Positions 6,504-14,605 of a stretch of DNA of 38,078 nucleotides are shown here, piece by piece. Below the pieces are notes generated by a model. That model searched no databases, had not been told where the DNA came from, and saw only the letters and a list, made by a program, of their open reading frames with translations. How positions within the stretch are numbered: the first letter of the stretch is position 1; each line of letters starts with the position of its first letter. Both the position numbers and the translations under genes were made by a program. Origin of the DNA: Deltaproteobacteria bacterium (lineage in GTDB: Bacteria > Myxococcota_A > Polyangia > HGW-17); assembly GCA_016937155.1 (NCBI GenBank), contig JAFGWM010000069.1, positions 1 through 38,078 on the forward strand, read 5' to 3'.

Positions 6504-7268
6504 ATGGATATAGCAACACTGCTGGGTTTACTTGGTAGTTTCGGCTTTATGGGCTGGGCGATCACCTCGGGAAGTGGTCTGGGTCCATTCATTGATGTTC
6601 CCTCACTTATTCTCGTTATTGGTGGAACTTTCATGGTGGGATTTGTACATTTTCCCCTTAAGGATATGATCAGTGCAGGAAAAGTGGCTAAAAATACTAT
6701 TTTTTCAAAACCAATCGACAACCAGCAACTAATAGAACAGCTGGTTGATTTTGCCAATAGAGCAAGAAGAGAAGGTATACTGGCACTGGAAAGCGTTATC
6801 CAGGAAACAAATAACCGCTTCCTTGCCCAGGGAATTCAGTTGGCCGTGGATGGACAGGAAGGGGAAGCTATTGAGGCAATTTTAACCAGCGAAATTGATC
6901 AACTGAAAAAGAGACACACGAAGGGGCAGGATATTTTCTTCGCGCTTGGTTCTTATTCCCCTGCAATGGGACTGATTGGAACACTTATCGGGCTGGTCCA
7001 GATGCTTCAGAACCTCAGTGACCCCAGTAAAATTGGTCCTGCAATGGCCATTGCACTTTTGACCACTTTTTATGGAGCTATCCTTGCTAACGTAATTTTC
7101 CTTCCGTTCAAAGGAAAACTTGAGCAGAGATCAAATTCTGAAACCTTCAGTATGGAACTCATACTTGAGGGAATTCTTGCAATCAGTGCAGGAGACAATC
7201 CTCGTGTGGTGGAGCAGAGGCTTAATGCTTACTTTGCCCCAGCTGCTCGAGTACAGGTTAATAAATAA
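6504..7268 (+). CDS. motA: Flagellar stator protein MotA
   Basis: The 254-residue inner-membrane protein has the four-helix MotA layout. Helices 1-2 lie at the N terminus (ATLLGLLGSFGFMGWAI and LILVIGGTFMVGFVHF), then comes a large charged cytoplasmic loop, then helices 3-4 with SYSPAMGLIGTLIGLVQML and MAIALLTTFYGAILANVIF. The conserved proline and glycine pattern around the third helix and the helix-4 threonines expected to line the ion path are present. GGAG precedes the ATG. The stop overlaps the next start by one base (TAATG), indicating translational coupling with the MotB-like gene. A sigma-28 promoter stands upstream. Confidence 0.95.
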   Translation: MDIATLLGLLGSFGFMGWAITSGSGLGPFIDVPSLILVIGGTFMVGFVHFPLKDMISAGKVAKNTIFSKPIDNQQLIEQLVDFANRARREGILALESVIQETNNRFLAQGIQLAVDGQEGEAIEAILTSEIDQLKKRHTKGQDIFFALGSYSPAMGLIGTLIGLVQMLQNLSDPSKIGPAMAIALLTTFYGAILANVIFLPFKGKLEQRSNSETFSMELILEGILAISAGDNPRVVEQRLNAYFAPAARVQVNK

Positions 7269-8044
7269 TGTCCAGAAAGAAAAAACATACTCAGGAAGAA
7301 GAATCAGCAGCCGATGGAGGGACATTTACTGTTATGTTCACCGCTTTGAGTATTATTCTTCTGGCGTTTTTCATTCTTCTGAAGTCAATGTCAGCTACTG
7401 ATGAACGGAAAAAAAGAATTGCTATAGGAAGCCTGTTCGGAACTTTTGGAATACTGCCGGGGGGGGAAAATTTTGATAAAAAGGGTAAATATTACTCAAG
7501 ACTTATCCCCCTGATTCAGAAAAATAATATTTTTACAGGTCTGGCCAAGGAAAAAGAGCTCATTGAATCAATGGGATTGGCTGAAGGAACAGATCTGGAA
7601 ATTGAAAGAACTGTTGATGGTATAAAGGTAACAATGAAGGCTCCTGTGCTTTTTAAACCTGATTCCTTCACTCTGGATCCCAGAGCATTTTCAATAATGG
7701 ACAGACTTGGAATGATTCTGATGCAGATTTCAAATCCTGTTGATATACTTGGATACGTTTCCAACAGAAAAAGAATAGGAGCCGTTAATATTGAAGACTG
7801 GAACCTATCTCTGGGAAGAGCAGTAAGCGTTGCAAATTATTTTATTAACGCCGTAGGTGTTTCTCCCCATCTTCTCAGGGCAGTCGGAAGAGGAAACCAT
7901 AACCATAATGAGAGAAACCTGAATATAAACTTTAAGGGGAATGACTGTGTAGTGATCTTTATAAGGGCATCCAAACACAGTGTTATCCCGAAACCTGTTA
8001 AACCTAAGTTTATTAAAAATATAAAACCAGTTAAGGAGAATTAG
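7268..8044 (+). CDS. MotB-like protein lacking the ion-carrying aspartate
   Basis: The 258-residue protein has one transmembrane helix (about residues 19-39) and a periplasmic OmpA-like domain (about 130-240) with DWNLSLGRAVSVANYF, the motif near which OmpA-like domains hold peptidoglycan. When its helix is aligned with that of the next gene using the shared Phe-Phe and MS(A/S) landmarks, the essential MotB aspartate is replaced by Ala26. The aspartate expected in the GHTD-like turn also reads GYVS. The gene overlaps motA by one base and ends three bases before the second motB. It may form a mixed stator dimer or act as a structural plug, which is inference. Confidence 0.8.
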   Translation: MSRKKKHTQEEESAADGGTFTVMFTALSIILLAFFILLKSMSATDERKKRIAIGSLFGTFGILPGGENFDKKGKYYSRLIPLIQKNNIFTGLAKEKELIESMGLAEGTDLEIERTVDGIKVTMKAPVLFKPDSFTLDPRAFSIMDRLGMILMQISNPVDILGYVSNRKRIGAVNIEDWNLSLGRAVSVANYFINAVGVSPHLLRAVGRGNHNHNERNLNINFKGNDCVVIFIRASKHSVIPKPVKPKFIKNIKPVKEN

Positions 8045-8047
8045 CAG

Positions 8048-8845
8048 ATGGCTAAACAGGATCCCAATGCATGGATGCTCACCTTCTCAGATCTTTTGAA
8101 TCTGCTGATAACATTTTTTGTTATGCTCATTGCAATGTCATCAATGGATAACAAGAAACTTAAGGATTTTGCGGGATTCTTCTCTGGCGCAATTGGGGTC
8201 CTTGAAAAAAATGCAACCGGAAGCTCAAGTCCGGGGCCTGACAAATCAACTTCCACAAGAGACCTTTCGGGAAACAAGGCCAGTGCATCAAGTTTTCAGT
8301 TGAGCGGATCACTAGGAGGCAGCACCAGAAAAGCTTCCAGCGCTGATGAAAAAGGAAACAGCACAAGTGCAAAGTCACAACACCTCAGTGTTGAGGGCAA
8401 ACAGACAAAAGTCGTTGCAGGACAGGAGTACGGCTGGCAGGAGTTCAGTCGAAAAATGGAAAAAACTATACATGATGAACAGATGAGGCATTTTCTAAGC
8501 ATCGGAACCAAGCCGGATGGATATACCATTACACTGAGAAAACTTAATCCGTTTGCAGAAGGGAAATCTGTTATCCTTGAGAAATCCCTGCCCGTTCTTG
8601 AAAAAATAGCCTCTCTTGCAAGAATTTGTAACTGTAATGTTCACATAAAAGGTGGATTCAAAAACAGTGAAAATTTTATGAACGGGCAGTACTACAGCCT
8701 TTATCATCTGGGAAGTGCAAGAGCTGTGGCTGTAACTATTTTTTTCCAGCAGCAGGGGTGTGCCGGAGCCAGACTATATCCCCAGATGCGACCTGAGGGT
8801 AACCTGAGCCAGCTGGAATTCTTTTTTGAAACAAGCAGAAGATGA
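8048..8845 (+). CDS. motB: MotB-like stator protein with conserved aspartate
   Basis: The 265-residue protein begins with the classic MotB start WMLTFSDLLNLLITFFVML, so Asp15 is in the position of the proton- or sodium-carrying aspartate. A long Ser/Gly-rich low-complexity linker (about residues 55-120) follows. The C-terminal OmpA-like domain is divergent: SARAVAVTIFF is recognisable, but the preceding turn has GGFKNS where GHTD is usual. AAGGAG precedes the ATG. The pattern is complementary to the preceding gene, which keeps a better OmpA domain and loses the aspartate. Confidence 0.85.
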   Translation: MAKQDPNAWMLTFSDLLNLLITFFVMLIAMSSMDNKKLKDFAGFFSGAIGVLEKNATGSSSPGPDKSTSTRDLSGNKASASSFQLSGSLGGSTRKASSADEKGNSTSAKSQHLSVEGKQTKVVAGQEYGWQEFSRKMEKTIHDEQMRHFLSIGTKPDGYTITLRKLNPFAEGKSVILEKSLPVLEKIASLARICNCNVHIKGGFKNSENFMNGQYYSLYHLGSARAVAVTIFFQQQGCAGARLYPQMRPEGNLSQLEFFFETSRR

Positions 8846-8863: not shown

Positions 8864-9391
8864 ATGGCAGATGATGAAACCAAACAGGAGTCCACAGCAA
8901 CCGGTGGAAATAAAACCCTAATAATTATAGTAATTGCAGGATTTGTGGTTTTAATTGGGGTAGTGCTGGGGGTTTTAGCATTAACCGGTGCCTTTTCAAA
9001 AGAAAAAAAATCTCAAGGACAAAGAATGTCAGCTGCTGGTATACCATCCGGCAGAGGTTACAGGGCTCCCTCCGGTGAAATTCGACCTCTGGGAAAAACC
9101 ATTGTTTTTGATACTCTCATTGTGAATCTTAATGAACCGGGAGGAACAAGATATCTGAAAGTCAAATTCCAACTGGAAATAACCAACGAAGAGGTCGAAA
9201 AAGAGATAATTAAAAAACTGGTTCCCATAAGAGATAGTCTGATAATGTATCTATCATCTCTGACTCTAAGTGAAACTCAAAGTGTTGAGGCAAAGAAAAA
9301 AATAAAAACCAACGTAAGAAGCAGGATGAACAAGGAGATTATATCCGGAAGAATCAATAGAGTTTTCCTAGAAGAATTTGTAGTACAGTAA
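8864..9391 (+). CDS. fliL: Flagellar basal-body protein FliL
   Basis: The 175-residue protein has a short cytoplasmic N terminus, one transmembrane helix (about residues 20-44), a flexible linker and a periplasmic domain. That domain contains YLKVKFQLEITNEEV and the helix with LSSLTLSETQSVEAKKKI, the typical FliL signature that precedes a conserved C-terminal strand. FliL surrounds the stator plug and supports torque. It is the last gene of the sigma-28-driven motA cluster, 18 bases after motB, and its presence argues that the stators serve a flagellum rather than gliding motors. Confidence 0.88.
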   Translation: MADDETKQESTATGGNKTLIIIVIAGFVVLIGVVLGVLALTGAFSKEKKSQGQRMSAAGIPSGRGYRAPSGEIRPLGKTIVFDTLIVNLNEPGGTRYLKVKFQLEITNEEVEKEIIKKLVPIRDSLIMYLSSLTLSETQSVEAKKKIKTNVRSRMNKEIISGRINRVFLEEFVVQ

Positions 9392-9433: not shown

Positions 9434-9617
9434 GTAGACATACTCTCATAAAGCTATTTTTGCTGGATTCCAATTTCATGGATTTTTTTTCAACTATTAA
9501 AAACCTTTGATTTTATGCACTAATACTCTCAGCATTTTAATATTTTCCATTTAATACTCAAATTTCCGTCTTTGGAATAATTTTTGCGAACTTATCAGGC
9601 TCCTGATGGAGCTAACA

Positions 9618-10781
9618 ATGCATATTATTACAGTAATCACCACTTACATCATTTCTGTCTGTCAGTTGACTACCGTGGGTCATGGCAGTGGCATATACGG
9701 TGTAAAAGGCAACATCGTATTCACCACAGAAAAAATCAGGCTATACCGTAAATCAACACTTGATACACCAGATAGAGCACTCATACGGACTGTTTCTACA
9801 GAATTACCAATAAATTCAGATGCTCCTGATCCGGAGATACTGCCTGAAAAAGCAGAGATTATTCAGAATATAAAAAAACATTATCTGTTGCGTAACGATA
9901 ACATCTATGAATTAAAAGGGAAAAAATGGCAACTGTACGAATATCATACAAGTTCCGCAATCGCATGTGGAAGCAGACTTTATTTCATCAAGGATGGAAA
10001 ATTATGCCGGAAAAACAGAAAAAACTGCCTGCATCTTCCTCATGGACTTAAAAGTGGCTGGTGTAACAACTCAAACCTGATGCTGTGGAATCTGAAAGGG
10101 CTATCGTGTATTTTTAAAAATGAAAATTATTTCTGCAACAGACAAAAATCCGGATTTATTCATGTTCCATGCGGATTAAACAGGGTCTGTTTACTTAATG
10201 GAAATGGAATTTTCACTCTCAATGGACATACTGTCTATAAAGGAAATATTTCAAAGTTACTGCCTTTTAAAAATGGTTTCTATTTCATTTCCAGAGGAAA
10301 ACTATATAGAAAAATTAATTCAGGGAAAATTGAAGAGTGTATCTTTCCTGGTAGTATCAGATCAATTTCTGGATCCGGAGACAGAGCATATTTATGGAGT
10401 CAAAGTGCAGTTTACGCGCCTGTCAGCATATGGACTGCCAGAGAATATTCCCTTTTTCTTCAATTACTCAGACAGCAGATTTCAGTGTGCCTAGGAAGTA
10501 TAATCAATGTTCCTTCATTTTCTGAGTATTCTATTTACATTCCGGAGATATCAGTATCAATTCAAAAAACTGAAAGCAGTAGCATGCTGCAGAAGTCGAA
10601 TATATTTGGGGGGTTTGTCAACTTCACCTGGCAAATTCAAAAATCAGAGATATCAAAAAAGAAACAGTTAATCGACGAAATATTAAAGCACAATAGAGAA
10701 ACCACCGCTCGCTGCATAAGCCTAAAAAAATGGTATCGATATCTAAAAAACAACTCACCTCCATTCAAAAGGTCTAATTGA
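9618..10781 (+). CDS. Exported protein, propeller-like repeats and helical tail
   Basis: I do not recognise this 387-residue protein with certainty. It has a probable signal peptide (HIITVITTYIISVCQ) and then short repeated units that look like blades: SRLYFIKDGKLCRK, NGFYFISRGKLYRK and related stretches about 40 residues apart. After about residue 290 it changes to PEISVSIQKTES, FVNFTWQIQK and a basic coiled coil, which resembles the end of TolC-like outer-membrane factors. The ATG at 9618 is preferred over 9606 because GGAG lies six bases before it. The next gene has a similar tail, so the two look like a related pair. Confidence 0.5.
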   Translation: MHIITVITTYIISVCQLTTVGHGSGIYGVKGNIVFTTEKIRLYRKSTLDTPDRALIRTVSTELPINSDAPDPEILPEKAEIIQNIKKHYLLRNDNIYELKGKKWQLYEYHTSSAIACGSRLYFIKDGKLCRKNRKNCLHLPHGLKSGWCNNSNLMLWNLKGLSCIFKNENYFCNRQKSGFIHVPCGLNRVCLLNGNGIFTLNGHTVYKGNISKLLPFKNGFYFISRGKLYRKINSGKIEECIFPGSIRSISGSGDRAYLWSQSAVYAPVSIWTAREYSLFLQLLRQQISVCLGSIINVPSFSEYSIYIPEISVSIQKTESSSMLQKSNIFGGFVNFTWQIQKSEISKKKQLIDEILKHNRETTARCISLKKWYRYLKNNSPPFKRSN

Positions 10782-10812
10782 AATTTTTCCAACAAAAAGA
10801 AAGGATTGAATT

Positions 10813-11556
10813 ATGTACATTACCATCATGTTATTTATTACCGGTACAGTGTTTACTATCCAGAATTCAACACCCGGAAAGAAAAGTTCTCTCCAGGGGT
10901 TTAACTCAAAAATTAATAATTTCTGCTATAAACACAAGGTTGCAGACTTCTACTGCCGATGCAGAAAGATAAAACCCATTAAGTTTTCTGGGATACTCAG
11001 TGATATCAAAGCCCATCGAAAAAGCCGCACAGGAAATTTGGATAGCATGGAGAAAAGATTAAGAACACAGGGGTGGTTTCCCGAAATTTCAATGGAGTGG
11101 GCAAGATATGATGATATAGACCGGACCCTGAACACATCGAATGAATATATTACCTGGGACAGCAATGTTTATAAAAGGCAATACTGGAAAATAAAAGCAA
11201 TATGGAAACCAGGAAACTTGATATTTGATTCAAGGGAGATTAATCTGTTAAATGTAAAAAGAAGAGAAATTTCTCATCTTGATTCGCTTTTTGAGCTGGG
11301 AAGAAGAACATTCTACGACTGGAAGTATCAGTTAATTCACTTCTGGAAGTATCCCTCCCTCATAAAACTTATCTATCTGGAGGAATCAGAAGAACTACTG
11401 AACGTTCTCACCGGGAACAGTTTTTCAAAAATGCTGAGGTGTCATGAAAGACGAATCATACGAAAACCGAAGACAGAACAAGCGATTTCAAGTAAAAATG
11501 GAAGTGGATCTAAAATGCAGAGACTCAAATCTTCTGACCAGAGTAACCACAAATGA
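10813..11556 (+). CDS. Exported protein with TolC-like helical region
   Basis: The protein has 247 residues as read. It has a hydrophobic N terminus (MYITIMLFITGTVF) that may be a signal peptide. A central part (GWFPEISMEWARYDD, then WKIKAIWKPGNLIFDSREI) continues into a long helix ending LYLEESEELLNVLTG-like; this strand-then-helix order resembles outer-membrane factor proteins. AAAGGA precedes the ATG. The last ~37 residues, after SFSKML, overlap the PilZ gene by 113 bases and look like out-of-frame readthrough. The natural end may therefore be near 11444, either because a stop was lost or because of an assembly frameshift. Confidence 0.5.
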   Translation: MYITIMLFITGTVFTIQNSTPGKKSSLQGFNSKINNFCYKHKVADFYCRCRKIKPIKFSGILSDIKAHRKSRTGNLDSMEKRLRTQGWFPEISMEWARYDDIDRTLNTSNEYITWDSNVYKRQYWKIKAIWKPGNLIFDSREINLLNVKRREISHLDSLFELGRRTFYDWKYQLIHFWKYPSLIKLIYLEESEELLNVLTGNSFSKMLRCHERRIIRKPKTEQAISSKNGSGSKMQRLKSSDQSNHK

Positions 11557-11836
11557 CCTCAGTCTTGGAGGGATATGCTTTCAGATTGACAGAAGAATCA
11601 ACACAGATAGTAAGCTGGAACTGGGACTTTCCCTTATTTTAGGACCTGACGCTGTTAGTGAAATACTTGAAGTCAACGGCAAAGTGGTGTGGTGTGCTGA
11701 GGAATTCCCTGGAATTTTCCAGATAGGCGCGGTTTTTTCAGAGTTGGATGATGAGAAAAAATCAAATATCGATACTTTTCTGGAGTTTATCAGGCAGGGT
11801 ATTGATTTAAATGATATTCCCGGGGAAGAAACATGA
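11444..11836 (+). CDS. PilZ-domain protein (probable c-di-GMP receptor)
   Basis: The 130-residue protein is essentially one PilZ domain. The N-terminal RRQNKR (residues 9-14) matches the RxxxR ligand motif and DLSLGG (38-43) matches the D/NxSxxG motif, so both c-di-GMP-binding elements are intact. The C-terminal GAVFSELDDEKKSNIDTFLEFI is the usual closing strand and helix. GAGG precedes the ATG. The start lies inside the previous reading frame and the stop overlaps the pseudokinase gene by four bases (ATGA), so these genes are translationally coupled. The HD-GYP protein encoded later in the window would be a matching c-di-GMP hydrolase. Confidence 0.87.
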   Translation: MKDESYENRRQNKRFQVKMEVDLKCRDSNLLTRVTTNDLSLGGICFQIDRRINTDSKLELGLSLILGPDAVSEILEVNGKVVWCAEEFPGIFQIGAVFSELDDEKKSNIDTFLEFIRQGIDLNDIPGEET

Positions 11837-12690
11837 AGAAAAAAATGTGCCATCTTTGTTTTGCCCTGACTGACTCCGGGGTTTGCCCATACTGTGGGAC
11901 TGAGATTAAAACAGTTGATTCTACTAATTTACCACTCATAGAGAGTTTTAAAACTGACCAGTTACTGGCAAATGCATATGGTGGCGAAATTTATAAGGGT
12001 CGAAATTCAGAAGATGAAGAAAAACTGATCTGGATTTCAACTGAGAACTTTGAATCTGAACCTGGTGATAACGGTTTCAGACCGGAGAAAGTCGGTGTTT
12101 CAGGGAAATATTTCTATATGATCTATCCTGTTCCTGAAGAATCAGTATGCAGAAAAAGCCGTTCCATCAAAGAATCCATTTCAGTTATGGAACAAATTTC
12201 CCAGGATCTTAAAATGAGGTTCATTAACGGGTCTGAAGTTCAACCATGGGAGATTGTCTTTCATGGCGGATTATGGAAAATATGGAATGGCTGGGATTTT
12301 CAGGGAAGTTCCAGAATTTACTTTAGAAGAACACCCTATACTCCTCCTGAAAAATACAGTGGTTCAGAGGTTAGCGAGAAAAGTCTCACCTATTTTCTCG
12401 GGGCAGTTTTTTATAACATCTATTCAGGCAAACTGCCAATGGGCCTACTCTCTCCCCCTTCCGGAAAAAACAATGCCCCTGATAATCAGGATCTTTTTAT
12501 TCTCAGAAGTCTTTCATACAACTCCTCCGACCGGGTTTCTCCTGAGAGGTTTCTGGAAGAACTGAACAGCATATCAAATGGAAATATTGTACTGAGAAGA
12601 ATGATGTTTGGCATCAGTGCAATCGCAGGAGCCTCTTTTTTAGCCATTTTAGGCTATGGACTCAGTGTTATTTTTTCAATGATTTACTGA
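11833..12690 (+). CDS. Zinc-ribbon, pseudokinase-like, tail-anchored membrane protein
   Basis: The 285-residue protein opens with two CxxC pairs (Cys6/9 and Cys18/21), forming a zinc ribbon. Residues ~35-245 follow the order of a Ser/Thr kinase fold: GGEIYKG resembles the glycine loop, QPWEIVF..LWKIWNGWDF sits where the catalytic loop and DFG lie, RTPYTPPEKY resembles the activation-loop APE region, and LGAVFYNIYSGKLPMG matches helix F. The catalytic Asp of HRD and the DFG motif are not recognisable, so it is probably a pseudokinase. A single transmembrane helix at 258-282 anchors it. It overlaps pilZ by four bases. The kinase similarity is inferred from motif order only. Confidence 0.6.
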   Translation: MKKKMCHLCFALTDSGVCPYCGTEIKTVDSTNLPLIESFKTDQLLANAYGGEIYKGRNSEDEEKLIWISTENFESEPGDNGFRPEKVGVSGKYFYMIYPVPEESVCRKSRSIKESISVMEQISQDLKMRFINGSEVQPWEIVFHGGLWKIWNGWDFQGSSRIYFRRTPYTPPEKYSGSEVSEKSLTYFLGAVFYNIYSGKLPMGLLSPPSGKNNAPDNQDLFILRSLSYNSSDRVSPERFLEELNSISNGNIVLRRMMFGISAIAGASFLAILGYGLSVIFSMIY

Positions 12691-13043: not shown

Positions 13044-13457
13044 ATGATTTATACAATCGTCGGAATTATTATAGTATTTTCCTTCCTGACCGGGTTTTTT
13101 CTGTCATATCTTTATTTAAAAAAACATACTAGTCCGTCAGAGTCTGATTCTTCACCCTCTAAAGTGGAAAGTAATAGTGTTGAAGAGTATGAACAGACAA
13201 GAAAGGTTGATCTTGTTGATATAAAGGATCTACTCAATCTCGATGGAGAGGTGATTGAAGCTGAACCTGCTCCTCAGGTTAGCGAAGATAAACTTCACAA
13301 GGCTGAACTTGAAATTCAGCGTCTTAACAGACAAATATTGGTTCTACAGGGCCGGGATCAGAGCAAGGAAATTGTTCTGGCACAATTGAAACAGAAACTT
13401 GAGCATGACAGCGGGGAAATTTCATCGGTTGTTGTCTCTGGAAATATCGATAAATGA
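13044..13457 (+). CDS. Membrane-anchored coiled-coil protein
   Basis: The 137-residue protein has an N-terminal transmembrane helix (residues 2-26), a Ser/Pro/acidic linker, and a coiled coil from about residue 90 (KLHKAELEIQRLNRQILVLQ). No catalytic motif is visible. Its stop overlaps the next gene by four bases (ATGA), so it is coupled to the histidinol-dehydrogenase-like protein and may anchor or scaffold it, which is inference. The nearest GAGGG stands about 12 bases before the ATG, a longer gap than usual. Confidence 0.6.
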   Translation: MIYTIVGIIIVFSFLTGFFLSYLYLKKHTSPSESDSSPSKVESNSVEEYEQTRKVDLVDIKDLLNLDGEVIEAEPAPQVSEDKLHKAELEIQRLNRQILVLQGRDQSKEIVLAQLKQKLEHDSGEISSVVVSGNIDK

Positions 13458-14605
13458 TACTGACCTCCAATCCGGAATTTCCGGAAACATCAACCCAGCT
13501 AAAAGGAAAAGCAGCACGAAAAATTCAGGATATTTCTCAAAAGGGTGTAGGAGGCATATCAGTATCTTCATCAAGTAGAGAGTTTGAACTTTCCCATGCA
13601 ACCATAGCTAAAAGCGCGACAATGCTCCCGCCAAGTGTGAAAAGCAGTATTGATGATCTGATAAGAGTGATGGAGAAGGTTTCTCTAAGGCAGATGGACA
13701 GCCTCAAGCGGTGTGTGATTGAACCATCTTCAGGTATCAGAATTGAACAGGATATCAAAGTATCCTCTTCCATGTCTGTATCTTCAAGTGGACAGTGGGA
13801 TAACCACAACCTAAGCGCTCTGGCGGGAATTTTGTGTAATGCAAGAGTTTGCAATGTTCCTGAGAGAACAGCAATTCTGGAACCTGATAACAACGGGGGG
13901 CTGAGTCCGCTCTCCATTTATACTGCTCATATGAGCGGAGCAACAAGAATATTACGATTACCACAAATAGATGGAATGATAGGTATTTCACTTGGCTGGT
14001 TTGGAAATACTCCAGAAACAATCCTTTCTACATGTGAACACGGTCTGGAAAAAGAAGTACAGATACTGCTTTCTAAAAGAAATGCAATGCCACAATGTGA
14101 TATTTGTATTGCAGCAGATTCAAATGCAGGTTCAAGAAATATTGCGGACATGATCATCGAGACAGTCAGTGAATATCCTGAATTAAATCTATTGTTTGTA
14201 TCCTCCTCAAAAAGAATCTGCAACAAAGTGATCCAGCATATTGAGGAGCAATCAGATAAAGCTTCTCCATGGAAAAGAGATTTGGATAAACTTCAGTATA
14301 CAATCCTTCAGGATACAGATGCGATTGTAAATTTCCTTAATAAATTTGTAATAAAAAGACTGCTGTTGCTCACAAACAGCATTGAGTATTACTCAAAACA
14401 CCTTAACCATGTTTCTCATATTATTTCAGGAGACACTTTTTCTATTGGCACCTCCATTAAAGCAATATCAGCTGGGAGCATAATCCCTGATATCAACACT
14501 GACTCAGGTGTATTCAAATTCCTCAGGACTGTAACCCTTGAAACATTAGACAACAGGGCAGGATTGCGTTTTCAGAATATTTTCAGAAATATCGATAAAA
14601 TTTAA
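13454..14605 (+). CDS. Divergent histidinol-dehydrogenase-like protein, probably inactive
   Basis: The 383-residue protein has HisD-like order: an N-terminal helical stretch (SSVKSSIDDLIRVMEKVS), a Rossmann-like core, the landmark IAADSNAGSRNIADMIIE (219-236) that matches the HisD VLVIADESANP..IAADLLSQAEH region, then LLFVSSSKRICNKVIQHIEEQ, and a final ISAGSIIPDINTDSGVFKFL that matches the HisD AGPNHVLPT..F segment. The zinc and catalytic residues of true HisD (the Gln and His of QAEH, the Asp of GDY) are not conserved, so dehydrogenase activity is unlikely. No other his genes are nearby. It overlaps the coiled-coil gene and its convergent neighbour by four bases each. The relationship was read by eye. 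Confidence 0.5.
   Translation: MILTSNPEFPETSTQLKGKAARKIQDISQKGVGGISVSSSSREFELSHATIAKSATMLPPSVKSSIDDLIRVMEKVSLRQMDSLKRCVIEPSSGIRIEQDIKVSSSMSVSSSGQWDNHNLSALAGILCNARVCNVPERTAILEPDNNGGLSPLSIYTAHMSGATRILRLPQIDGMIGISLGWFGNTPETILSTCEHGLEKEVQILLSKRNAMPQCDICIAADSNAGSRNIADMIIETVSEYPELNLLFVSSSKRICNKVIQHIEEQSDKASPWKRDLDKLQYTILQDTDAIVNFLNKFVIKRLLLLTNSIEYYSKHLNHVSHIISGDTFSIGTSIKAISAGSIIPDINTDSGVFKFLRTVTLETLDNRAGLRFQNIFRNIDKI

Follow-up and report, generated by a model that had tools for sequence, protein, structure and literature searches.

How a flagellar stator might work when just one of its two MotB subunits carries the ion-binding aspartate is the question raised by a gene cluster on contig JAFGWM010000069.1 of a Deltaproteobacteria bacterium (GTDB lineage Bacteria; Myxococcota_A; Polyangia; HGW-17; assembly GCA_016937155.1), which was analysed as a stretch of 38,078 nucleotides referred to here as the window. 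On its forward strand, a single motA gene (6504..7268; Pfam MotA_ExbB) is followed by two motB genes in tandem, motB1 (7268..8044, encoding 258 amino acids) and motB2 (8048..8845, encoding 265 amino acids), and then by fliL. The coupling of a MotB pair to one motA and one fliL, as described in a first-pass annotation made from the sequence alone, thus agrees with the order and common orientation of the open reading frames (ORFs). The start of motB1 overlaps the stop of motA by one base (TAATG), and three bases separate the stop of motB1 from the start of motB2. The same annotation had placed an alanine, Ala26, at the ion-carrying position of the first MotB and an aspartate, Asp15, at that of the second. 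Alignment of the two proteins on their invariant FF motif bears this out: Ala26 of MotB1 (FTALS; codon at 7343..7345, forward strand) faces Asp15 of MotB2 (TFSDLL; codon at 8090..8092, forward strand), the sole predicted ion-carrying carboxylate of the pair, at the position of D32 in Escherichia coli MotB and D24 in Vibrio PomB. In other respects MotB1 has the parts expected of a MotB, namely a membrane helix (residues 20-42), a plug (MotB_plug in Pfam, 38.4 bits; cut-off 24) and a significant OmpA-like domain (37.4 bits). MotB2 combines an aspartate-bearing helix and a plug (51 bits) with a long linker modelled at low confidence and a divergent C-terminal domain, which is recognizable as OmpA-like by its predicted fold and not by Pfam (13 bits; cut-off 27).

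This arrangement is conserved well beyond the window. Together with the window, a scan of named genomes and a phylum scan yielded 61 non-redundant tandem pairs; one of the two patterns used in the named-genome scan favours helices without aspartate, so that pairs in which both MotBs keep it (D/D pairs) are undercounted there. The pairs come from Myxococcota, Desulfobacterota, SAR324, Bdellovibrionota, Nitrospirota, Methylomirabilota, Tectomicrobia, Coatesbacteria and Sumerlaeota, as well as from metagenome-assembled genomes labelled Kiloniellaceae, a spread of at least eight phyla. At the ion position the second protein has aspartate in all 61 pairs, and the first has serine in 26, alanine in 21, threonine in eight, aspartate in three, glycine in two and cysteine in one, such that 58 of the 61 first genes encode an aspartate-less MotB1. 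Relatives of the window's organism have alanine within the same genus, serine within the same order and serine or threonine within the same class. The three pairs whose first gene encodes the aspartate belong to distant lineages, and the recent point mutation that such relatives might have signalled finds no support. The order motA-motB1-motB2-fliL is kept in most complete loci, with most pairs sitting between motA and fliL; motB2 lies directly downstream of motB1 in every complete aspartate-less locus, and the two genes are no more than 20 bases apart in 40 of the 58 aspartate-less pairs. A separate family search in Myxococcota returned ten further D/D tandem pairs, plus extra aspartate-less ones of the same type.

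The difference between the two helices extends to all of the residues expected to face the ion. With helix positions numbered according to E. coli MotB, the ion face comprises positions 29, 32, 35 and 39. MotB2 proteins present T29 and D32 and often T35 and T39, whereas MotB1 proteins present L or M29, S, A or T32, M, I or L35, and A39, with a mean of 0.76 polar residues at the four positions in MotB1 versus 3.52 in MotB2. In Vibrio PomB, T21 and D24 coordinate Na+ and S27 lies above D24 (PMC10374538); these three residues correspond to positions 29, 32 and 35. An aspartate elsewhere in the first helix, which would have undone the first-pass interpretation, is absent from MotB1 of the window and of 57 relatives, and no aspartate or glutamate was found anywhere in the membrane helix of these 58 proteins. 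Judged from the alignments, MotB1 has lost its entire ion face and not a single residue, and the loss of all of these polar residues suggests a subunit built not to carry ions.

The two helices also differ where MotB dimers pack against each other. Of the published interface positions 31, 34, 38, 41 and 45 (PMC10659934), three show opposite size preferences within pairs. Position 31 is T, L or V in MotB1 and S or G in MotB2 (larger in MotB1 in 56/58 pairs), position 34 is S or N in MotB1 and L, V or I in MotB2 (smaller in MotB1 in 51/58), and position 45 is N in MotB1 and L, F or I in MotB2 (smaller in MotB1 in 49/58). Among clade representatives the same directions hold at positions 31, 34 and 45 in 20, 18 and 18 of 21, respectively. 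Helix identity between MotB1 and MotB2 averages 0.36 in the 58 aspartate-less pairs (range 0.19-0.48), against a mean of 0.96 in 13 D/D pairs, a set that includes ten from separately fetched Myxococcota regions. C-terminal identity, by comparison, was 0.26-0.29 in the three D/D pairs in which it was measured and 0.27 on average in the aspartate-less pairs. We read this pattern of sequence identities as pointing to two stable states of the pair, one symmetric and one asymmetric and complementary, with little in between. In the Myxococcota D/D pairs (loci L128-L133 and L135-L138), the two helices do not differ at any of the 21 positions examined, which suggests gene conversion or a strong constraint on the helix.

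The organism appears to have no other flagellar B subunit to fall back on. Its assembly (4.1 Mb in 85 contigs, 95% complete) encodes one FliG, FlhA-family proteins and one flagellar MotA, and a search of its proteins for MotB_plug found none beyond MotB1 and MotB2. The remaining MotA/ExbB homologues lie elsewhere in the genome and none has a MotB partner: those on contigs C14, C76 and C82 adjoin ExbD, and a weak one on contig C3 has a different context. As far as a 95% complete assembly shows, the flagellar stator of this organism draws its B subunits from motB1 and motB2 alone. The tandem pair is likewise the sole MotB_plug pair in the nearest flagellated relatives (G001 and G009). More broadly, 16 of 46 genomes with pairs (15 with an aspartate-less pair and one with a D/D pair) have no further MotB, and flagellar rotation in those genomes must therefore rely on the pair.

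In the phylogenetic tree, MotB1 and MotB2 sequences group by paralogue and not by species, 54 of the MotB2s forming one group with a support of 94; the split between the two is thus old. The state of the aspartate changed at least four times on this tree; with weak support for many inner branches and a number of long rows, the exact count of losses is uncertain. That the aspartate-less state arose only once was considered and rejected, since one clade of aspartate-less sequences fails the approximately unbiased (AU) test (p-AU 0.007) and at least four changes are required; this rejection may owe something to gene conversion, or to regain of the aspartate, in the three D/D rows. Within Desulfovibrionales, the MotB1s with glycine (L077 and L081) group with MotB1s that retain the aspartate (L084 and L090), and the change from aspartate to glycine is likely, from this grouping, to have been a separate loss.

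The periplasmic domains follow a looser rule. A canonical peptidoglycan-binding motif was scored as the presence of the Asp and Arg of GHTD ... LS..RA. Both residues are present in 45/61 MotB1s, 35/61 MotB2s and 39/40 other MotBs, and the OmpA score is higher in MotB1 than in MotB2 in 46/61 pairs. In the window, both proteins lack the canonical Asp and keep the Arg, MotB1 having GYVS in place of GHTD. Structure models indicate that the fold is retained on both sides: residues 84-236 of MotB1 match the periplasmic domains of MotS, PomB and MotB with Z scores of 19-20, and residues 124-263 of MotB2 match the same domains with a Z score of 16.6 over 137 residues (root-mean-square deviation 3.0). 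The MotB2 domain thus appears to have diverged in sequence while keeping its fold, despite the lack of a Pfam OmpA match. Strict loss of the OmpA-like domain in MotB2 was rejected as a rule, the motif being complete in both proteins of 27/61 pairs and degenerate in both proteins of the window. The complementary losses proposed in the first-pass annotation accordingly hold for the ion-carrying aspartate; for the OmpA-like domain they amount to a trend.

What complex, then, do these proteins form? The annotation had put forward a mixed MotA5-MotB/MotB' stator, and the conservation of the pair, the loss of the ion face, the seemingly complementary interfaces and the absence of any other MotB make this the best-supported reading, while leaving the complex itself a proposal. 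From the sequences we infer, with moderate confidence, an obligate MotA5-MotB1-MotB2 stator that has a single ion-carrying aspartate and in which a MotB1-MotB2 heterodimer, and not a MotB homodimer, would sit inside a ring of five MotA subunits. MotB2 would supply the only ion-binding carboxylate, Asp15, together with the polar residues beside it, and MotB1 would supply a helix that carries no ion, a plug and a periplasmic OmpA-like domain. In the published 5:2 model with two sites, each ion transit is coupled to a 36-degree step (PMC9389320), from which about five ions per turn would be expected with one site. A stator with a single aspartate would therefore pass some five ions per turn of the MotA ring in 72-degree steps, versus ten ions in steps of 36 degrees; it would save ions at the cost of torque per turn. 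The ion is probably Na+. MotA of the window has equivalents of the PomA threonines T158, T185 and T186 (in GTLIG and LLTTFYG), which are conserved in Na+-driven stators (PMC10374538) and from which Na+ is deduced here; they recur in nearly all pair operons in which the motif was located. PomA is also the best NCBIfam match of this MotA, at a score below the family's cut-off.

Several points weigh against a heterodimeric stator of this kind. E. coli MotB mutants without the aspartate are non-functional and interfere with the wild type, so that a dimer with one aspartate would need an adapted mechanism. The interface counts are not independent, because MotB1s and MotB2s share ancestry within clades, and the size asymmetry could equally reflect MotB1 homodimers that pack differently. 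Many pair-bearing genomes encode further MotBs. The structure models are of single chains only; a fold of MotB1 and MotB2 read through as one chain gave good periplasmic domains, low overall confidence (predicted template modelling score, pTM, 0.49) and no information on pairing.

These points leave some room for a division of labour between separate complexes, in which MotA5(MotB2)2 homodimer units would be active and MotB1 would reside in non-conducting MotA5(MotB1)2 units, or in free dimers, as an anchor, brake, placeholder or regulator. An aspartate-less homodimer cannot rotate and could still anchor, and MotB1 retains its plug, an OmpA fold that matches those of known stators and, more often than MotB2, a complete peptidoglycan motif. 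We nevertheless consider this arrangement rather unlikely, though clearly the most serious competitor, since the MotB1 interface (S or N at 34, N at 45, and T, V or L at 31) is unlike that of nearly all single MotBs and opposite in size to that of its own MotB2. The invariable position of motB2 directly after complete aspartate-less motB1 genes is consistent with a fixed stoichiometry, and the near-identity of helices in D/D pairs also speaks against separate complexes.

Considerably less probable is a MotB1 that works outside the ion-channel complex, as a periplasmic scaffold or T-ring-like element with a retained MotB-type anchor. MotY and FlgT are T-ring-like elements in Vibrio, and the conserved OmpA-like fold and adjacent fliL would suit such a role. 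The most conserved part of MotB1, however, is its helix and plug (ILLAFFILL and GSLxGxFG), which match MotB_plug and would be superfluous in a mere anchor. That motB1 is a sequencing error, a recent point mutation or a decaying pseudogene can practically be dismissed: nothing was found in its favour, 58 intact aspartate-less copies occur across many phyla in the same gene order with the helix conserved, and the age of the paralogue split excludes it.

A mixed MotA5-MotB1-MotB2 stator would differ from each of the known systems that it resembles. In Aquifex aeolicus, a single operon contains motA and, behind it, two motB genes, and encodes a Na+-driven stator with MotBs whose C-terminal domains have diverged; their helices are 97% identical over the transmembrane and N-terminal regions, and each was functional with MotA in a fusion to the periplasmic part of E. 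coli MotB (PMC4525482). The window shares the single motA, the two motB genes and the diverged C-termini with Aquifex. Unlike the two aspartate-bearing, near-identical Aquifex helices, its first MotB lacks the aspartate, and helix identity in such pairs averages about 36%. MotA with its PomA threonines and MotB2 with a T21/D24-type ion site resemble Vibrio PomAB, in which PomB, by contrast, is a homodimer with two Asp24 residues (PMC10374538). The Myxococcus gliding motor AglR-AglQ-AglS also joins a single A subunit to two MotB-like B subunits that differ from each other; AglQ and AglS, unlike the flagellar pair, are both described with the conserved aspartate and power gliding, and whether they form hetero- or homodimers is not known (PMC9389320). 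The Myxococcota D/D pairs mentioned above show the order motA-motB-motB and, unlike the pair in the window, keep both aspartates. In the open-licence papers searched, we found no description of an aspartate-less MotB or of tandem MotBs with one aspartate, and a 2025 stator survey makes no apparent mention of the aspartate or D32, of Myxococcota, or of aspartate-less or tandem B subunits (PMC12505986). The ion-carrying aspartate has been called universally conserved in stators in a recent structural paper, and in today's models of flagellar rotation two equivalent aspartates alternate around the MotA ring. A natural and widely conserved stator with one aspartate would break that rule and would make the alternating-site mechanism directly testable: it could be asked whether one site is enough, how large its steps are and how many ions they cost. 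It would also imply separate, separable roles for the two MotB chains.

A parallel arrangement occurs in a non-flagellar motor of the same genome. At G000:C82:10729-12410 (L035, L126, L127 and L148), two ExbD-like genes come after an ExbB gene, the first of the two with asparagine (MPIMNLL) and the second with aspartate (SLMDALT) at the ion-carrying place of ExbD/TolR. Among 29 complete Myxococcota loci with ExbD pairs (L149-L177), 28 are Asn/Asp and one is Ser/Asp, with the aspartate-less gene first in 28. The open-licence literature searched held no description of an Asn/Asp ExbD pair; exbB1 of M. xanthus (MXAN_1448) has been reported beside two exbD genes (PMC8546572). By analogy, the same design in a second kind of motor makes axles with one aspartate more plausible. 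We tentatively entertain, without quite favouring it, the idea that 5:2 rotary motors include a widespread class that would turn on an obligate heterodimeric axle with one aspartate (about five ions per turn and 72-degree steps) and would have arisen separately in MotAB and ExbB-ExbD-type motors. If so, rotation would not require the two B subunits to be symmetric.

Downstream of motB2, the stator-associated fliL gene (8864..9391, forward strand; Pfam FliL) closes the conserved block. The region 3′ of it (9606-12690) holds two ORFs without Pfam matches (9606-10781 and 10813-11556), a protein with a PilZ domain, of the c-di-GMP-binding family (11444-11836), and a 285-amino-acid protein with weak zinc-ribbon-like matches; the ORFs between fliL and position 12690 are possibly stator regulators. 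Further along, beside motility genes, an ORF at 13454-14605 shows a partial match to histidinol dehydrogenase (PF00815, 40 bits).
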